From Candidatus Melainabacteria bacterium (GTDB lineage: Bacteria > Cyanobacteriota > Vampirovibrionia > Obscuribacterales > Obscuribacteraceae), in assembly GCA_027451745.1 (NCBI GenBank), contig DAIDIP010000003.1, positions 1-64,000 on the forward strand: DNA of 64,000 nucleotides. The letters run 5' to 3'. This document shows, piece after piece, positions 32,455 to 40,122 of the stretch. Position 1 is the first letter of the stretch. Each line of letters begins with the position of its first letter. Both the position numbers and the translations under genes were made by a program. The notes beneath the pieces were generated by a model that was not told where the DNA came from, made no database searches, and saw only the letters and a program-made list of their open reading frames with translations.

Positions 32455-33984
32455 ATGCCACAGAGGCTAGCATCCAAAGATATGACACACTTTAGTAGCA
32501 ATTCGGGGATAACATTGGAAACTAAAACAACTGCGATGGACAAAAAAGAAACCGTAGCAGGTGGACTAGAAAATGTTATCTGCGATTTAAACACAATAAA
32601 AGGCCGCCTCCATTTCATAGGCATTGGTGGGATAGGGATGTCGGCTTTAGCTCGACTAATTTTAGGTAGAGGGATTGCTGTTAGCGGTTCTGATAAGCAA
32701 GGCAACCCGATAACTGACGAACTAATTAAATTAGGAGCAAAAATAAATATTGGTCATGCAGCAAACAATGCTGAAGGTGCAGCCGGTGTAGCAATTTCTA
32801 CTGCCATTACTAAGGATAATGCCGAATTGAATTGGGCAAAGGGAAATAACATTCCTATTTGGCATCGTTCGCAAATCTTAGCAGCATTAACGCATGGACA
32901 AAAACTCGTTGCAGTTTCTGGTACGCATGGAAAAACCACTACAACAGCTATGATTGGAAAATTATTCATAGATGGTGGTTTGGATCCCAGCATTGTTTTA
33001 GGAGGGGTTTTACCCTTGCTGCAATCTAATTGTCGAGCAGGAAAAAGCAATTATTTTGTGGCGGAGGCTGATGAGAGCGACGGTACACACGCCACTCTAA
33101 AAGCAGAGTTTGCGGTAGTTACCAATATTGAAGCCGACCACTTAGAAAATTATCCTGCTGGCATGAAACAAATTCTTGATACTATGAAAATTTTTGCTAA
33201 TCAGGCCAATAATGTGGTTTTGTGCCTGGATGATAAAGGCTGTCAAAAAATTCTGCCTGATTTAAAAAGCAGAATTGTTGGCTATCGCCTTAAAACCAAA
33301 GATACAATAGACACAAATATTCAGACATTTTATGAATTCGAAGATATCTCCGATGCGAATAATACTCTTATGACTGTTTATAAGAACGGCAAATTGTTAG
33401 GCACTGTCAGCCTTGCTGTGCCAGGCATTCATAATCAATACAATGCTATAGCAACTATTGCTGTTGGACTAGAATCGGGTATAGATTTTGAAACGGCAGC
33501 TAAATCTATAGGCACATTTGCAGGCGTAGATAGACGCTTTCAGATTATAGGACATGTAAAAGATGTTCTCATAGTAGACGACTATGCTCATCATCCAACC
33601 GAAATAGTGGCAACGCTACAGGCTGCTCGGCAATATATAAAGCAGGGTAAGTTTGCCGGCAAACGTATTGTGGCTGTATTCCAACCTCATCAGCCCGGTA
33701 GATTGCGAGATTTCTGGAGTGAATTTTGTGACGCTTTCAGTGATTGCGATTTATTATTGATTGCCGATGTATACATTGCTCGCGGGGGTGCAATACCCGA
33801 TATCAATAGCGAGCGATTTTGCAAAGAAGTAAAGCAAAAAAATTGTCATCATTTGCCAGGACCCTCGCAAGAGTTGGCCGCAAAAATAAAAGGCTTTTTA
33901 CAACCTCATGATTTAGTGATCACTATTGGTGCTGGCGATATAACTAATGTTGGACCACAATTACTGCGATTGTTACAGACCTAA
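32455..33984 (+). CDS. murC: UDP-N-acetylmuramate--L-alanine ligase
   Basis: MurC adds L-alanine to UDP-MurNAc, the first amino acid of the peptidoglycan stem. The N-terminal Rossmann domain starts at LHFIGIGGIGMSALARLIL, the ATP loop is VSGTHGKTTTTAMIGKLF, and later motifs include FVAEADESDGT, GVDRRFQIIGH and DDYAHHPTEI. The protein has 509 residues if it starts at ATG 32455, some 40-50 longer than typical. ATG 32482 and ATG 32536 are in-frame alternatives, and none has a strong ribosome binding site, so the start is uncertain. murB begins two bases after its stop. Confidence 0.95.
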   Translation: MPQRLASKDMTHFSSNSGITLETKTTAMDKKETVAGGLENVICDLNTIKGRLHFIGIGGIGMSALARLILGRGIAVSGSDKQGNPITDELIKLGAKINIGHAANNAEGAAGVAISTAITKDNAELNWAKGNNIPIWHRSQILAALTHGQKLVAVSGTHGKTTTTAMIGKLFIDGGLDPSIVLGGVLPLLQSNCRAGKSNYFVAEADESDGTHATLKAEFAVVTNIEADHLENYPAGMKQILDTMKIFANQANNVVLCLDDKGCQKILPDLKSRIVGYRLKTKDTIDTNIQTFYEFEDISDANNTLMTVYKNGKLLGTVSLAVPGIHNQYNAIATIAVGLESGIDFETAAKSIGTFAGVDRRFQIIGHVKDVLIVDDYAHHPTEIVATLQAARQYIKQGKFAGKRIVAVFQPHQPGRLRDFWSEFCDAFSDCDLLLIADVYIARGGAIPDINSERFCKEVKQKNCHHLPGPSQELAAKIKGFLQPHDLVITIGAGDITNVGPQLLRLLQT

Positions 33985-33986
33985 GT

Positions 33987-34904
33987 ATGGAAGAACATAC
34001 TCACGAACCACTAGCTCGCTATACTACTTTGAGAATTGGCGGAGAGGCTCAGCGTCTTTTTCAACCAAAAACCACCGAAGAATTGATTTCGATAATCACT
34101 CGTCTAGATCAAATAAGTGAACCTTGGCATATTTTAGGTGGCGGCTCTAATTTACTTGTGTCCTCTAGTGGTGTAAAAGGCAGCGTTATAAGAACTGCGC
34201 AGATGCTCGACATAAAACAATTAGATACATATTTAATTGAAGCATCCGCAGGCGTGAGGCTACCTCATCTAGCTCGCTTTGCGGCTGGTTTAAACTTATC
34301 GGGACTCGAATTTTTAGTTGGCATTCCAGGCACTGTGGGCGGTGCAGTGGTAATGAATGCAGGCGCTCATGGTAGTTGTATGGCTGAATTAGTAGAGTCG
34401 GCTCTTATATACGATGTCAAACAAAATAAGCTTATTACTATGACAAAAGACGATTTGTCCTTTAGTTATCGTAAGTCTACTATTGATCTGGGGAGCCAAG
34501 TTGTTGTTTCAGCTCGCCTAAATTTACGTGCAGGCAAACAAAGTGAAATAGAAGCAAAAATAAAAGCAAACGAAGAATATCGATTGAAGACCCAACCAAT
34601 AGGTTTTCCAAATGCTGGCAGCACTTTTGTCAATCCCGAACCAAATCGTAGTGCAGGGTACTTAGTAGAACAAGCCGGCTTAAAAGGATTCACTTCTGGC
34701 CAAGCTGCTGTTTCACAATTACACGCAAATTTTGTCATTAATTTAGGTAACGCCACTTCAACAGATGCCACAGCATTAATAAGACATATGCAAAATAGCG
34801 TATACGAAAAATTCTCTATAAAAATGCGCCCAGAATGGAAAACGCTAGGAGAATTCACAGCAGAAGAATTAGAGCCGTGGAAAGTAAAGGTTCCAAATAG
34901 TTAA
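33987..34904 (+). CDS. murB: UDP-N-acetylenolpyruvoylglucosamine reductase
   Basis: MurB reduces UDP-GlcNAc-enolpyruvate to UDP-MurNAc with FAD and NADPH. In 305 residues it has YTTLRIGGEAQ, the FAD motif LGGGSNLLVSSSG, EFLVGIPGTVGGAVVMNAGA, FSYRKSTI, and NAGSTFVNPEP with the catalytic serine. The missing Tyr loop of the E. coli enzyme marks it as the shorter type-II form. It starts two bases after murC. The gene order murC-murB is shared with cyanobacteria and Firmicutes. Confidence 0.95.
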   Translation: MEEHTHEPLARYTTLRIGGEAQRLFQPKTTEELISIITRLDQISEPWHILGGGSNLLVSSSGVKGSVIRTAQMLDIKQLDTYLIEASAGVRLPHLARFAAGLNLSGLEFLVGIPGTVGGAVVMNAGAHGSCMAELVESALIYDVKQNKLITMTKDDLSFSYRKSTIDLGSQVVVSARLNLRAGKQSEIEAKIKANEEYRLKTQPIGFPNAGSTFVNPEPNRSAGYLVEQAGLKGFTSGQAAVSQLHANFVINLGNATSTDATALIRHMQNSVYEKFSIKMRPEWKTLGEFTAEELEPWKVKVPNS

Positions 34905-34909
34905 TCACT

Positions 34910-35689
34910 ATGCAAATCCCGATAGATAATTTAAATATCAATTTCCAAGTGTACGGGAGTGGGCAGCCAATTGTAGTTCTCCACGGTTGGGGCGATCGCT
35001 CAGATAACTGGTATCCTTTTGCTCAGCTGCTAGCAAATAAATACCAAATATTTTTAGTGGATTTGCCAGGCTTTGGCGGCAGTGATACACCACCTATTCC
35101 CTGGGGAGTCGAGGACTATAGCAAAGCAATAACAAAACTTATTCAAGAATTAGAAATCGAAAAACCAATATTGATGGGACATTCGCATGGAGGCAGAATC
35201 ATCTGCAAAATTGCTAATGATACTAACATTGCTCGCGCTTTAGTTTTTGTTAGTAGCGGTGGTGTAGATATGCCCAGTTTAGAAGTAAGACTAAAGATTC
35301 TTTGGTTCAAAACAATTAAATGGTTGGTGAAACCTCTTGGCAAAACTGGCGAAAATATCTTAGACAATTATCGTAAAAAGCTCGGTTCACGGGATTACCA
35401 AGAAGCTGGATCAATGCGGGACACAATGGTTAAAGTAGCAAATTACAAATTGTTCAAACTGCTGCCAAATATAAATTTGCCATCGATAATTATTTGGGGC
35501 AGTGAGGATAAAACACTATCTTTTGACCAATCCAAAATATTTGAAAAATTGATTCCTGATTCATATATAAAAATCATTTGGGGAGGAAGTCATCATTTAA
35601 ACCTAGACTCAGCACAAGAATTAGCTGAAATTGTTGATGACTTTGTTAGTAGCTTAGAATTGGATGCAAAAGTAGTGAGTGCTCATTAG
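34910..35689 (+). CDS. Alpha/beta hydrolase inside the mur cluster
   Basis: This 259-residue alpha/beta-hydrolase has the oxyanion region VVLHGWGDRSDNW, the nucleophile elbow MGHSHGGRI, an acidic residue in WGSEDKTLS and the late histidine in GGSHHLNLD, so the catalytic triad is complete. The substrate is unknown. It sits five bases after murB and two bases before the MurF-like gene, so it belongs to the cell-wall operon. A role in precursor, lipid-carrier or amide/ester chemistry of the wall is plausible but unproven. Confidence 0.88.
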   Translation: MQIPIDNLNINFQVYGSGQPIVVLHGWGDRSDNWYPFAQLLANKYQIFLVDLPGFGGSDTPPIPWGVEDYSKAITKLIQELEIEKPILMGHSHGGRIICKIANDTNIARALVFVSSGGVDMPSLEVRLKILWFKTIKWLVKPLGKTGENILDNYRKKLGSRDYQEAGSMRDTMVKVANYKLFKLLPNINLPSIIIWGSEDKTLSFDQSKIFEKLIPDSYIKIIWGGSHHLNLDSAQELAEIVDDFVSSLELDAKVVSAH

Positions 35690-35691
35690 CT

Positions 35692-37113
35692 ATGAATCTG
35701 AAGTATTACCTGCTAATTTTTCAACTAGAAGCCTACCGAGTTCTGCGCTTTTTAAACTGGATTGCTAAACACTATATTGGTTTTAAACCAGAAAATAAAG
35801 AACCTGTTTGGACAGTCAAAGCAAAACAATTGTATAGGCTATCTATTCTTATTTTTACAGTTTGTGCTCTGTATTTGTTCTTTACGCAAAATATTTTTAT
35901 AGCCTTGATTGCCACAGCTATTTTATGGCTCAACAGCTATGTCTTATTGATATTAGCTTTGGGTGTAATTAGGCCGTATGAAATTTTCAATCGTTTACGC
36001 GTTAAGCAGCTTATTAAAAACAAAATTCGTAATCTAAAAGAACAACATCATTTAACTGTAATTGGCATAACTGGCAGTTTTGGTAAAACATCAAGCAAAA
36101 TGGTAATTGGACAAGTGTTACCAAAATGCCATATAACACCTAAGTCATATAACACAATGTTTGGCATATTCAAAACAATAGATTATGAGCTGAATAAACG
36201 CTATAAATTTTTTGTGTGCGAAATGGGTGCCTATAAACGTGGGGACGTCAAAGAATTTTGTGAACTGGTCAGTCCGGATATTGGTGTTTTAACAGGAATA
36301 AACGAACAACATTTAGAAAGATTTGGTTCAATTGAAAACACAATTCAAGCCAAATTTGAAATTCTCACTACATTGAATAGTGGTGGTACAGGTATTGTTA
36401 ATCTAGATAATGACTTAGTCAGAGAAAATATAATTCGTTTTAAAGATAAGCTAGATCGCAAGCGTATTTATTTGATTGGTTATTCTCTTGGTGGTAAGAG
36501 TAGCGAATACTGCAAAGAGATTATTTCAATCAATAGTTGGCGCATTGAAAATAATAAATCGGTCTTCGAACTCTCTTATAAAGGGCAGACTTATAATTTA
36601 AATACAGCCCTTATTGGTAAAGGACATCTTTCTAATATTTTGGCTGCTATTGCGGTAGCTTTATCTTGCGGACAAAATATAAATGATGTTATTGATAGGG
36701 TCAGCAAAGTAAAACAAATTCCCCATAGACTTGAACTTCGAGTTAATCATGGCATCGCGATGCTAGACGACACCTATAGCAGCAATCCTACAGGATTTAG
36801 AGAGGCTTTAGAAACTCTAAAACAGTTCCAGGGCAATAAAGTGCTTATTACACCTGGCATTGTTGAACTTGGCGATAAAGCCTTGGCTATTCATAAAGAA
36901 GTGGGCGGTCTAGCAGCTAGTGTTTGCGATGAAATTGTTTTGGTTGGCAATTCTGCTAATTTACAGGCTATGAAAGAGGGCATTTTGTCTGCTGGATATG
37001 AAAGCCATAAAATTATGCAGTTGACAGGGCGAGCTAAAGTGCCAGAATATTTGCAAACAAAAAACAACTGCACTGTGTTAATGGAAAACGATTTACCAGA
37101 TCAGTATTTATAG
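35692..37113 (+). CDS. Membrane-anchored MurF-like ligase
   Basis: The 473-residue protein has a Mur-ligase central and C-terminal core: ATP loop VIGITGSFGKTSSKMV, FVCEMGAYKRGD, LTGINEQHLERFGS, HRLELRVNHG, DDTYSSNPTGFREAL and ITPGIVELGD. This fits MurF, the ligase adding D-Ala-D-Ala to UDP-MurNAc-tripeptide. The first 110 residues are not the usual MurF substrate-binding domain but contain two hydrophobic segments (about 48-95), so the enzyme is probably tethered to the membrane. Genes upstream are murC and murB. It could act on a different, perhaps lipid-linked, substrate. Confidence 0.85.
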   Translation: MNLKYYLLIFQLEAYRVLRFLNWIAKHYIGFKPENKEPVWTVKAKQLYRLSILIFTVCALYLFFTQNIFIALIATAILWLNSYVLLILALGVIRPYEIFNRLRVKQLIKNKIRNLKEQHHLTVIGITGSFGKTSSKMVIGQVLPKCHITPKSYNTMFGIFKTIDYELNKRYKFFVCEMGAYKRGDVKEFCELVSPDIGVLTGINEQHLERFGSIENTIQAKFEILTTLNSGGTGIVNLDNDLVRENIIRFKDKLDRKRIYLIGYSLGGKSSEYCKEIISINSWRIENNKSVFELSYKGQTYNLNTALIGKGHLSNILAAIAVALSCGQNINDVIDRVSKVKQIPHRLELRVNHGIAMLDDTYSSNPTGFREALETLKQFQGNKVLITPGIVELGDKALAIHKEVGGLAASVCDEIVLVGNSANLQAMKEGILSAGYESHKIMQLTGRAKVPEYLQTKNNCTVLMENDLPDQYL

Positions 37114-37214: not shown

Positions 37215-37523
37215 TTAATTGTTCACGGACTGAATTTCAAAGCAATTTTCTAAAACAATTTTTCTAAAATCAGGAGCAATTGCTGCCCAATCGATGACAT
37301 CAACTTTATACGGTAAGTCAGAAAGACTGAATTCATCACGTAAATAACCAAGCGTTTCAAATGGAATACGCTCATTACTTATTATGCATAAATCTAGATC
37401 TGATGTTTTTTTTGCTTTCCCGGTTACTCTAGAACCAAAAGCCGCAACCCGATAATCAGGAACATAACGTTTAAGTACGTCTCTAACGATTGCTAAATGA
37501 TCGGGGCGAACATCAAGTGGCAT
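37215..37523 (-). CDS. MNT-type minimal nucleotidyltransferase (antitoxin)
   Basis: The 102-residue protein is a minimal nucleotidyltransferase with the pol-beta motif AAFGSRVTGKAKKTSDLDLCI, giving the catalytic aspartates, and a third acidic residue in KVDVIDW. In HEPN/MNT toxin-antitoxin systems the MNT protein AMPylates the HEPN toxin. Its start overlaps the end of the HEPN gene by 11 bases, so they are translated together. It ends about 100 bases from murF, facing it. Because this pair is a mobile two-gene unit, it may have been inserted between murF and ddl. Confidence 0.88.
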   Translation of the reverse strand: MPLDVRPDHLAIVRDVLKRYVPDYRVAAFGSRVTGKAKKTSDLDLCIISNERIPFETLGYLRDEFSLSDLPYKVDVIDWAAIAPDFRKIVLENCFEIQSVNN

Positions 37524-37911
37524 GTCTTAATGACTCCAATAAAGCTATAGCGTCAGGCAAAAATACTTTGGCCTCTTCAGCCACCTTTTTAGCTACTTCA
37601 ACGTTATAGCTATGCGATGTCTCGTTGCGAGCTTCATAATGTCCGATCCAAGATCCGGCATCGGCAACCAATCTAAGTCTAGCTGCTTCGCGAAAAAGAT
37701 CTTTTTTTGTTCTTATACTAGCATCATCGATTTGAGCAATCACTTTTAGATATCGTTGCAACAATTTCCAGGAAAGATCCATACTATACTCAAAACGCTG
37801 GATAACTCCATCGCGTCGCAACTCATCATCAGGATTTAAATTCATTTGCTCTAAACCCTCCTCTAATTGTTTGAGTGCCTTTGCGAGCGGATCTAGATTT
37901 AATTCTTGCAT
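37513..37911 (-). CDS. HEPN-domain protein (HI0074-like) of a HEPN/MNT pair
   Basis: The 132-residue all-helical protein resembles the HI0074/HEPN family. It has FEYSMDLSWKLLQRYL in the middle, and ARNETSHSYN near residues 94-103 matches the R-X4-H-X-Y motif. In this motif R and H form the RNase site, and the tyrosine is the residue AMPylated by the MNT partner. A ribonuclease toxin controlled by the MNT antitoxin is the likely role. AAAGG lies before the ATG. The pair could also be a non-toxic nucleotidyltransferase complex, as first described for HI0073/HI0074. Confidence 0.88.
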   Translation of the reverse strand: MQELNLDPLAKALKQLEEGLEQMNLNPDDELRRDGVIQRFEYSMDLSWKLLQRYLKVIAQIDDASIRTKKDLFREAARLRLVADAGSWIGHYEARNETSHSYNVEVAKKVAEEAKVFLPDAIALLESLRHAT

Positions 37912-37938: not shown

Positions 37939-38997
37939 TTAGGCTACAGCTTCTTGCTTAGTATTTACACCGTGCTCCATTAAAGCAAGCTCAATTAATT
38001 TATCAAAGAAAGCTGTAGGGCTCATACCCGCTTCAGCAGCTTGATGAAATACCATTGTTGAAGGGGTTACGCCCGGCAAAGTATTTGGCTCATTAATATA
38101 CAGTTTTCTTTCATTAGTATCCCAAAAACCATCGATGCGGGTATACACACGCAAATTCATAGCTCTATACGCTTTAACAAATTCGTCTTGCATTTTTTTG
38201 ACGTCTTCTTCTGGCACTCTTGGAGGAGTGATCATTTGCGCATCTCCAGGCAAGAATTTTTCTTCTAAAGTTAGAAATTCGCCTTTAAAAGGCGTCTCTG
38301 TTGGTAGAAGCGCAACTGGGTGCTCGTTGCCTAATACAACACAAGTGACTTCCATCATATTCATGAATTTTTCAGCCATGATAACGCGATCCCATTTCAT
38401 AGCTTCATGAATGGCAGCTTTTAACTGCGAGCGGTCATTTACTTTAGAAATACCAGTACTGCAGCCTTCACAAGATGGTTTTACAACACAAGGAAAACCA
38501 AGTTCCTTTTCTACTTTGTCTTCTACTTGAGAAAGATTTTCCAAATCGTCTTTGCGAATGACTACATGAGGAGCGTAATGCAAGCCGGCTGCTTTGAGTA
38601 ATTGTTTTTGAAAAACTTTATCCATACCGATTGCTGCACCGATAATTCTTGGTCCGTTATATGGTATTTGCAAAATTTCTAACAAGCCCTGCAAAGCGCC
38701 ATCTTCTACATATTTGCCATGCAAGCCAAGAAAGGCAAAATCAATGATATTTTTTAGATCTTCAAAATAAATTCTTTTAGCATCAGTCTCTAAACATTTT
38801 TCTATATCAGCAGTGGCATTCATCCACAAAAGACGTTCTGCTACTTCATAGAATTTCAAATCGTAACTTACATAGATAGGAATAATATGATATTTGCTAT
38901 TGTCTAAGCTGTTATATATATGCCGTCCACTTTCTAGAGAAATTTCTTTTTCTGACGAACAACCGCCAAAAAATACGCCTACTCTCATATTAGTCAT
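37939..38997 (-). CDS. ddl: D-alanine--D-alanine ligase paralog B (degenerate)
   Basis: The 352-residue protein is an ATP-grasp Ddl-family ligase. It keeps the N-terminal GGCSSEKEISL glutamate, the lysine and RxD of the ATP/metal region (RVYTRIDGFW) and the metal-site motif INEPNTLPGVTPST. It departs from the Ddl consensus where the catalytic serine loop would be GSSVG (here GCSTG), where the catalytic tyrosine in the F-Y-x-Y-E-x-K-Y segment is leucine (FLTLEEKF), and at HGxxGEDG (HGKYVEDG). Its ATG follows the TAA of paralog A with no gap. It may be inactive, regulatory, or active with another substrate or with paralog A. Confidence 0.85.
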   Translation of the reverse strand: MTNMRVGVFFGGCSSEKEISLESGRHIYNSLDNSKYHIIPIYVSYDLKFYEVAERLLWMNATADIEKCLETDAKRIYFEDLKNIIDFAFLGLHGKYVEDGALQGLLEILQIPYNGPRIIGAAIGMDKVFQKQLLKAAGLHYAPHVVIRKDDLENLSQVEDKVEKELGFPCVVKPSCEGCSTGISKVNDRSQLKAAIHEAMKWDRVIMAEKFMNMMEVTCVVLGNEHPVALLPTETPFKGEFLTLEEKFLPGDAQMITPPRVPEEDVKKMQDEFVKAYRAMNLRVYTRIDGFWDTNERKLYINEPNTLPGVTPSTMVFHQAAEAGMSPTAFFDKLIELALMEHGVNTKQEAVA

Positions 38998-40122
38998 TTA
39001 AGATACCCCCACTTTCTCTTCATGGGCCGCCATGCCGAGATCAATTATTGTAGAAATAAATGTGCGAGGATTGAACTTTGCTCCACCCTTGCTCTTCAGC
39101 CCGCCTTTACCCTTTAATAACATGTCTTGCAAGGACGCTTGTTGGAACACATAAGATGATGGAACCATAATTGTTCCAGTATGTGGCTCGCTGATATAGA
39201 CTGTTTCTTTGTTTTTCAAGAAACCATCTACACGTCCATAACCTTGGATATTGAGCATTTTATAGACTTTAACACCAATGTCCTGAATTTCTTTTATTTT
39301 TTCTTGCGGAGCTCTAATTGGCGTGTGATAAACAGCCTGTCCAGGCATATATTTGTTTTCATAAGTAAAAAAGTCACCGCTAAATTCCACTTCAGAAGGT
39401 TGCATGGCTACAGGCTCATCAGCACCAACAACGACACACATAAATTCTTGACCGACAATAAATTCTTCAATTAAGACTTCGTCGTCCCATTTTAATGCTT
39501 CTCTAAGAGCAGCATCTAGCCCTTTAGCGCTGCGCACACAAGAAACACCAATGCTAGAACCTTCAGCAACTGGTTTGACGATTACAGGGAAACCAAAACG
39601 TTCATTAATTTCTTTAACTATTGATTCGACTTTCTGTGACTTGCCATAATCGGTTCTATACACAGTAATGTCTTCGGCTACGGTAATACCGTTTGCTTTT
39701 AAAAAGCGCTTGTGGACACCTTTATGCATACAAACAGCTGAAGCCAATATACCTGAACCTGAATAAGGAACCTTAACCATCTCCAGTACCCCTTGGATGG
39801 CACCATCTTCACCGTATTTTCCTAAAAGAGCAATGAAAGCAAAATCTATTACACTGCTGAGGTCTTCAAAACGAATGTGCTTTGCAGAGGCTTCAAGTTT
39901 TTCTTCCACATCTTTTGTGGTATTTTGCAGCACCAATTTCGGTGGCAAGTGCCACAGTAATCCAGAATAGCTCATATACAGGGGAATGCCCTCGTACTTG
40001 GAGGAATCAAGAAGATTTAGGACATATCTTCCGGTTGCCAAAGAAACTTCTTTCTCAGCTGATTTACCGCCGAAAAGTACTCCGACACGAATCTTTTTTT
40101 GTGGATTTTGATTTTCGCTCAC
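38998..40122 (-). CDS. ddl: D-alanine--D-alanine ligase paralog A (degenerate metal site)
   Basis: The 374-residue Ddl-family protein keeps GGKSAEKEVSL (glutamate), KPVAEGSSIGVS (catalytic serine), the F-T-Y-E-N-K-Y tyrosine segment and GYGRVDGFL. The metal motif E-x-N-T-x-P-G is EPHTGTIMVPSS, so the conserved asparagine is histidine and the PG is lost. HGxxGEDG is LLGKYGEDG, with the histidine changed. The C-terminus has an insert rich in Lys and Gly (MLLKGKGGLKSKGGAKF). The GTG start at 40122 has AGGT upstream. It precedes paralog B directly, and the two damage patterns are complementary. Confidence 0.85.
   Translation of the reverse strand: MSENQNPQKKIRVGVLFGGKSAEKEVSLATGRYVLNLLDSSKYEGIPLYMSYSGLLWHLPPKLVLQNTTKDVEEKLEASAKHIRFEDLSSVIDFAFIALLGKYGEDGAIQGVLEMVKVPYSGSGILASAVCMHKGVHKRFLKANGITVAEDITVYRTDYGKSQKVESIVKEINERFGFPVIVKPVAEGSSIGVSCVRSAKGLDAALREALKWDDEVLIEEFIVGQEFMCVVVGADEPVAMQPSEVEFSGDFFTYENKYMPGQAVYHTPIRAPQEKIKEIQDIGVKVYKMLNIQGYGRVDGFLKNKETVYISEPHTGTIMVPSSYVFQQASLQDMLLKGKGGLKSKGGAKFNPRTFISTIIDLGMAAHEEKVGVS

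Follow-up and report, generated by a model that had tools for sequence, protein, structure and literature searches.

D-Alanine–D-alanine ligase (Ddl), an essential enzyme of cell-wall synthesis, has been studied in depth as an antibiotic target (D-cycloserine), and the active sites of known Ddl enzymes are complete within one subunit. To our knowledge, every description of Ddl concerns one gene whose product has identical subunits. CarB of carbamoyl-phosphate synthetase is a tandem ATP-grasp duplication that forms one enzyme, with a different reaction. Natural fusions of Ddl also exist; however, in the Chlamydiae-like MurC–Ddl proteins, one of which was encountered here (G424), the partner is MurC and not a second Ddl, and the Ddl residues of the G424 protein are near-canonical. 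The VanA/VanB and VanC/VanG ligases belong to the same superfamily and have altered acceptor specificity. In lactic acid bacteria, Phe versus Tyr at one site was found experimentally to decide between depsipeptide (D-lactate) and dipeptide activity, the single-gene D-Ala-D-Lac ligases of Leuconostoc and Lactobacillus carrying Phe (Phe261 in LmDdl2; PMC5996685). In E. coli DdlB, the changes Y216F and S150A give rise to weak D-Ala-D-Lac activity (PMC7691350), and a structure of the Y216F mutant exists (1iow). That an unequal pair of paralogues can make up one enzyme is illustrated by the unrelated prozyme-type AdoMetDC of T. brucei, which has a dead paralogue (PMC5201418). No description of a tandem or fused double Ddl was found in the openly licensed literature, and the two adjacent paralogues described here, A and B, are a real, conserved two-part Ddl variant that is undescribed in that searchable literature.

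The window, a stretch of 64,000 nucleotides from a Candidatus Melainabacteria genome (G000), carries the pair beside the following genes:

32455–33984, plus strand: murC, peptidoglycan context
33987–34904, plus strand: murB, peptidoglycan context
34910–35689, plus strand: alpha/beta hydrolase, adjoining the murF-like gene; the same neighbour occurs in the CALJRW01 genome described below (46% identity)
35692–37113, plus strand: murF-like Mur ligase, the genome's sole MurF candidate; its linkage to the pair recurs in CALJRW01
37939–38997, minus strand: ddl paralogue B (B/C-type half), 352 amino acids, ATG start, complete ORF
38998–40122, minus strand: ddl paralogue A (A/N-type half), 374 amino acids, GTG start, complete ORF

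As the preliminary description had stated, the two genes abut without a gap: the ORF coordinates place the TAA of A directly against the ATG of B, in the same frame. The two proteins are 44% identical (151/344). Both contain Dala_Dala_lig_N (PF01820) and Dala_Dala_lig_C (PF07478) above the cut-offs, and both pass NF002528 (A only just) and TIGR01205, for which B scores 266.9 bits and A, barely, 245.7 against a cut-off of 245.65. By domain content and family model, A and B are thus members of the D-Ala-D-Ala ligase family. By curated models they are not Van-type ligases, as both fall far below every Van-type NCBIfam cut-off (for example, 206–208 versus 495 bits for VanG); no van-type genes were present among the neighbours examined.

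A and B were aligned with E. coli DdlB, the numbering of which is used throughout, and with S. aureus Ddl. They have the fold (as seen in the model of B), domains, ATP-site lysines, E15, R255 and D257 in common with canonical Ddl enzymes (E. coli DdlB and DdlA, S. aureus Ddl). In addition to E15, R255 and D257, A retains S150, K215, Y216, E270 and S281, and it carries the substitutions H63L, Y210F, N272H, P275T and G276I, so that its metal motif reads EPHTGTIM. B retains E15, H63, R255, D257, E270, N272 and G276, with the motif EPNTLPG, and carries G67V, S150C, Y210L, Y212L, Y216F and S281T. The metal triad D257/E270/N272 and the G276 oxyanion loop are therefore present in B but broken in A (N272H, G276I), whereas the E15–S150–Y216 triad is present in A but broken in B (S150C, Y216F). 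The alignment bears out the residue pattern originally proposed for A (Glu, GSS serine and Tyr kept, metal motif altered, HGxxGEDG histidine replaced by Leu) and the view that neither paralogue is canonical and that their losses are complementary. For B, the intact metal motif and the changes of Ser to Cys and Gly to Val hold, but the catalytic tyrosine had been misread as Leu: in the segment LTLEEKF, compared with the canonical YDYEAKY, Phe stands at Tyr216 and Leu at Tyr210 and Tyr212. It had also been considered that equivalent residues might be supplied from shifted positions; on reading the sequences, we found no displaced Asn, Tyr or His up to several residues away from any lost position in either protein, and hence no nearby stand-in at the sequence level. 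The AlphaFold model of B has the Ddl fold (TM of about 0.8 against S. aureus Ddl); that of A is poor (pTM 0.51) and too weak for interpretation.

The search for a third, canonical ddl elsewhere in the genome (3.0 Mb, 96.5% complete) yielded none: A and B are its only Ddl homologues, and the other ATP-grasp matches are AccC, PurK and a 1098-amino-acid, CarB-sized frame. MurC, MurD and MurE were found, together with the single murF-like candidate, the N terminus of which reads as hydrophobic and probably membrane-spanning, replacing the usual N-terminal domain. Given this set of enzymes, the terminus of the stem peptide, if the cell makes one, would have to come from the A–B pair. Elsewhere in the genome, a gene (L240; C11:39051-39770) encodes a MurT-like lipid II isoglutaminyl synthase subunit that scores below its NCBIfam cut-off. 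A second, very divergent RpoB homologue (approximately 1200 amino acids) occurs beside the normal RpoB in four Obscuribacteraceae-like genomes: G000 (C37:7995-9194), G001, G002 and G010.

Only one other genome was found in the genus, a Candidatus Melainabacteria MAG (G001; contig JABDBL010000032.1) that represents a second species. Both genes are present there, 84% and 85% identical to those of the window and carrying the same substitutions, and no further Ddl occurs, which answers the question of whether relatives retain the same pair. Between the two genomes, dN/dS is about 0.05 for both A and B, with dS near saturation, and the neighbouring murB and murC are less conserved (71% identity); both genes are under purifying selection, and neither copy is decaying. 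Directly downstream of B (window 37215-37911, minus strand) lies a gene pair encoding NTase_sub_bind and nucleotidyltransferase proteins, toxin–antitoxin-like (HEPN/MNT type), which has the same position in G001 (75% and 68% identity).

Among 382 genomes of the class, the B-type is confined to this genus, and each relative in the class from which a Ddl was read carries a single one, with complete or near-complete canonical residues. Seven family members (L038, L041, L042, L049, L056, L058 and L059) have a conserved hydrolase–murF (approximately 565 amino acids)–Ddl (approximately 410 amino acids) cluster in place of murB–ddl, and the Ddl of this cluster shows Tyr210 replaced by Leu, a shortened loop after PG and an insertion after KY. 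A tandem in G002 (L037, C9:135301-136918) was rejected as a different ATP-grasp pair, with no match to A and only 29 bits to B; its two genes score 72–80 bits to PF07478 and lie at or near background relative to A and B.

One scan of GTDB species genomes was performed for the pair outside the genus. CALJRW01 (G374), which RpoB placement puts outside Cyanobacteriota, contains two A–B pairs with the same residues (A 58–61% and B 71% identical by BLAST), although the duplication could also arise if the MAG mixes sequences of two strains or species; no other Ddl was found in it. In one of the copies (L084), the gene order is A–B–hydrolase–murF-like–Asp/Glu racemase, the hydrolase and murF-like proteins being 46% and 42% identical to their counterparts in the window. 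The presence of a related hydrolase and murF-like gene beside this pair suggests that the A–B pair belongs to a peptidoglycan precursor module and that it was probably transferred between phyla. The Asp/Glu racemase gene (L084 4687-5466) directly follows the murF-like gene in this operon.

In four genomes of the same phylum as CALJRW01, an A-type and a B-type sequence are fused in one ORF of 794–824 amino acids. In a second phylum, that of G422, with genomes of approximately 1 Mb, matches were obtained in 87 of 101 genomes; all of the fetched loci (52/52) are single ORFs of 728–874 amino acids, and the A-type half comes first in every fusion that could be cut and aligned (51/51). No other Ddl was found in 15 of 15 sampled genomes of this phylum; alone among the fused-type genomes sampled, G387 has one further Ddl-like gene. 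Except for matches at contig ends, no solo A-type or B-type gene was detected in the surveyed genomes: the two types always occur together, in the order A–B and with invariant signatures.

The asymmetry was assessed in 59 unique halves of each type (4 split, 4 fused from the CALJRW01 phylum and 51 fused from the G422 phylum). S150C, Y210L, Y216F and S281T are present in all 59 B/C-type halves, which likewise all retain E15, H63, K97, K215, R255, D257, E270, N272 and P275; K144 is kept as well, except in one half in which this residue is an unread X. Every one of the 59 A/N-type halves retains E15, K97, K144, S150, K215, Y216, R255 and D257 and has lost P275. Their metal loop carries E270D in the 55 fused forms and N272H and G276I, together with H63L, in the 4 split ones; G276 is retained in the fused A-type halves, as are, with few exceptions, H63 and N272. 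Single Ddl sequences in the same alignment have S150, Y216, E270, N272, P275 and G276 in 18 of 18 cases. The recurrence of the signature substitutions in all pairs and fusions places the pattern far from chance. In the phylogeny, paired and fused sequences are separated from single Ddl by one supported branch (97), the support of which is still 97 when the signature columns are removed. The B and C halves form one clade (support 91), and the AU test does not reject an A + N clade (p 0.43); both groupings are weak once the signature columns are removed, and only the split between paired or fused and single Ddl is firm. The simplest reading of the sequences, in which one ancient duplication preceded the fusion (or a fission), is thus likely but not proven.

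These observations suggest, with somewhat better than even confidence on our part, that A and B together form a single D-Ala-D-X ligase, obligately made of two unequal parts and the only Ddl of the cell, in which B is catalytic and A is an impaired partner. Canonical Ddl is one gene with identical subunits, whereas here two conserved unequal halves, neither of them canonical, occur in fixed order or fused. The existence of fusions and the strict pairing of the two types argue that the halves act together, and the natural fusions give indirect support to a putative physical A–B heterodimer. B is the likelier catalyst because it keeps the whole ATP and Mg machinery; it would bind ATP and Mg through normal residues and phosphorylate one D-Ala. 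Its acceptor pocket appears to have been rebuilt (S150C, Y216F, Y210L and S281T); D-Ala is therefore probably not the second unit, or not the sole one, and the product may differ from ordinary D-Ala-D-Ala. Leading candidates for the second unit are D-lactate and D-serine, although B has S150C and the studied change is S150A, which makes either product an extrapolation. The A half keeps the E15–S150–Y216 triad and the ATP-site lysines, but its second-metal/oxyanion loop is altered and the split form also lacks His63 and Gly276; A is therefore probably catalytically impaired and would be needed in a structural or regulatory role. In the fused relatives, where the metal-loop changes are mild (E270D, P275S), the A-type half may still be active. 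As the sole Ddl, the A–B ligase would supply its product to the adjacent, probably membrane-anchored MurF-like ligase. Of the earlier suggestion of a heterodimeric enzyme or a ligase plus regulatory subunit, one enzyme of two unequal subunits is well supported by the absence of another Ddl, the conserved substitutions, the fixed order and the fusions, with a ligase plus partner as the best fit; a version with a shared active site is not.

A different specificity for each paralogue had also been suggested, and for B this is partly upheld: Phe at the DdlB Tyr216 position, in B and in all 59 B/C-type halves, is the depsipeptide determinant of lactic acid bacteria (PMC5996685). B resembles a Phe-type D-Ala-D-Lac ligase and is a candidate for one, but it adds S150C, Y210L and S281T to the single-gene enzymes of those bacteria and always occurs with an A-type half. 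The contrast between Phe216 in B and Tyr216 in A, which fits the known depsipeptide/dipeptide switch, could mean that the two are independent active ligases that are neighbours by chance, A making D-Ala-D-Ala and B making D-Ala-D-Lac or D-Ala-D-Ser. The ATP-site lysines and R255, kept in both fused halves, along with the mostly kept N272 and G276, are compatible with two active enzymes; however, the split A-type lacks N272, G276 and H63, solo genes were seen only as contig-end matches, and independent enzymes would hardly be expected to become fused in two groups. We consider this explanation unlikely.

More doubtful still is a machine in which the two ATP-grasp sites act one after the other, like those of carbamoyl-phosphate synthetase, and which might, for instance, make a longer or unusual stem-peptide end. 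The tandem duplication of CarB is a precedent, and the ATP-site residues are invariant in both halves, as is the asymmetry across the 59 pairs, but the split-pair A-type looks metal-impaired and we saw no sign of a second substrate. The complementarity of the losses had led to the proposal that A and B together furnish one composite active site within a dimer, each providing what the other is missing. Known Ddl active sites lie within a single subunit, the metal and ATP site of B is complete, and G276 and, with few exceptions, H63 and N272 are still there in the fused A-type halves, so that neither half needs to be complemented. Because each half has an ATP site of its own and most of the losses seen in A are absent from the fused A-type halves, the composite site is unsupported and very improbable. 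Decay of one copy, which the non-canonical catalytic positions might bring to mind, is ruled out for practical purposes by the same substitutions across genera and phyla, a dN/dS of about 0.05 for both genes and conservation exceeding that of murB and murC.

We tentatively propose, with rather limited confidence, that the two-part ligase of unequal halves extends to a phylum-spanning 'double Ddl' class, split or fused, that acts as the sole stem-peptide ligase of its hosts. Its product would end in something different from D-Ala-D-Ala, and catalysis would fall to one half while the other, metal-impaired, would be indispensable as its partner. If true, this would be a natural case of subunit specialization in an ATP-grasp ligase on which some Melainabacteria-related and some small-genome bacteria depend as their only Ddl, and whole uncultured groups may have cell walls with unusual stem-peptide ends.
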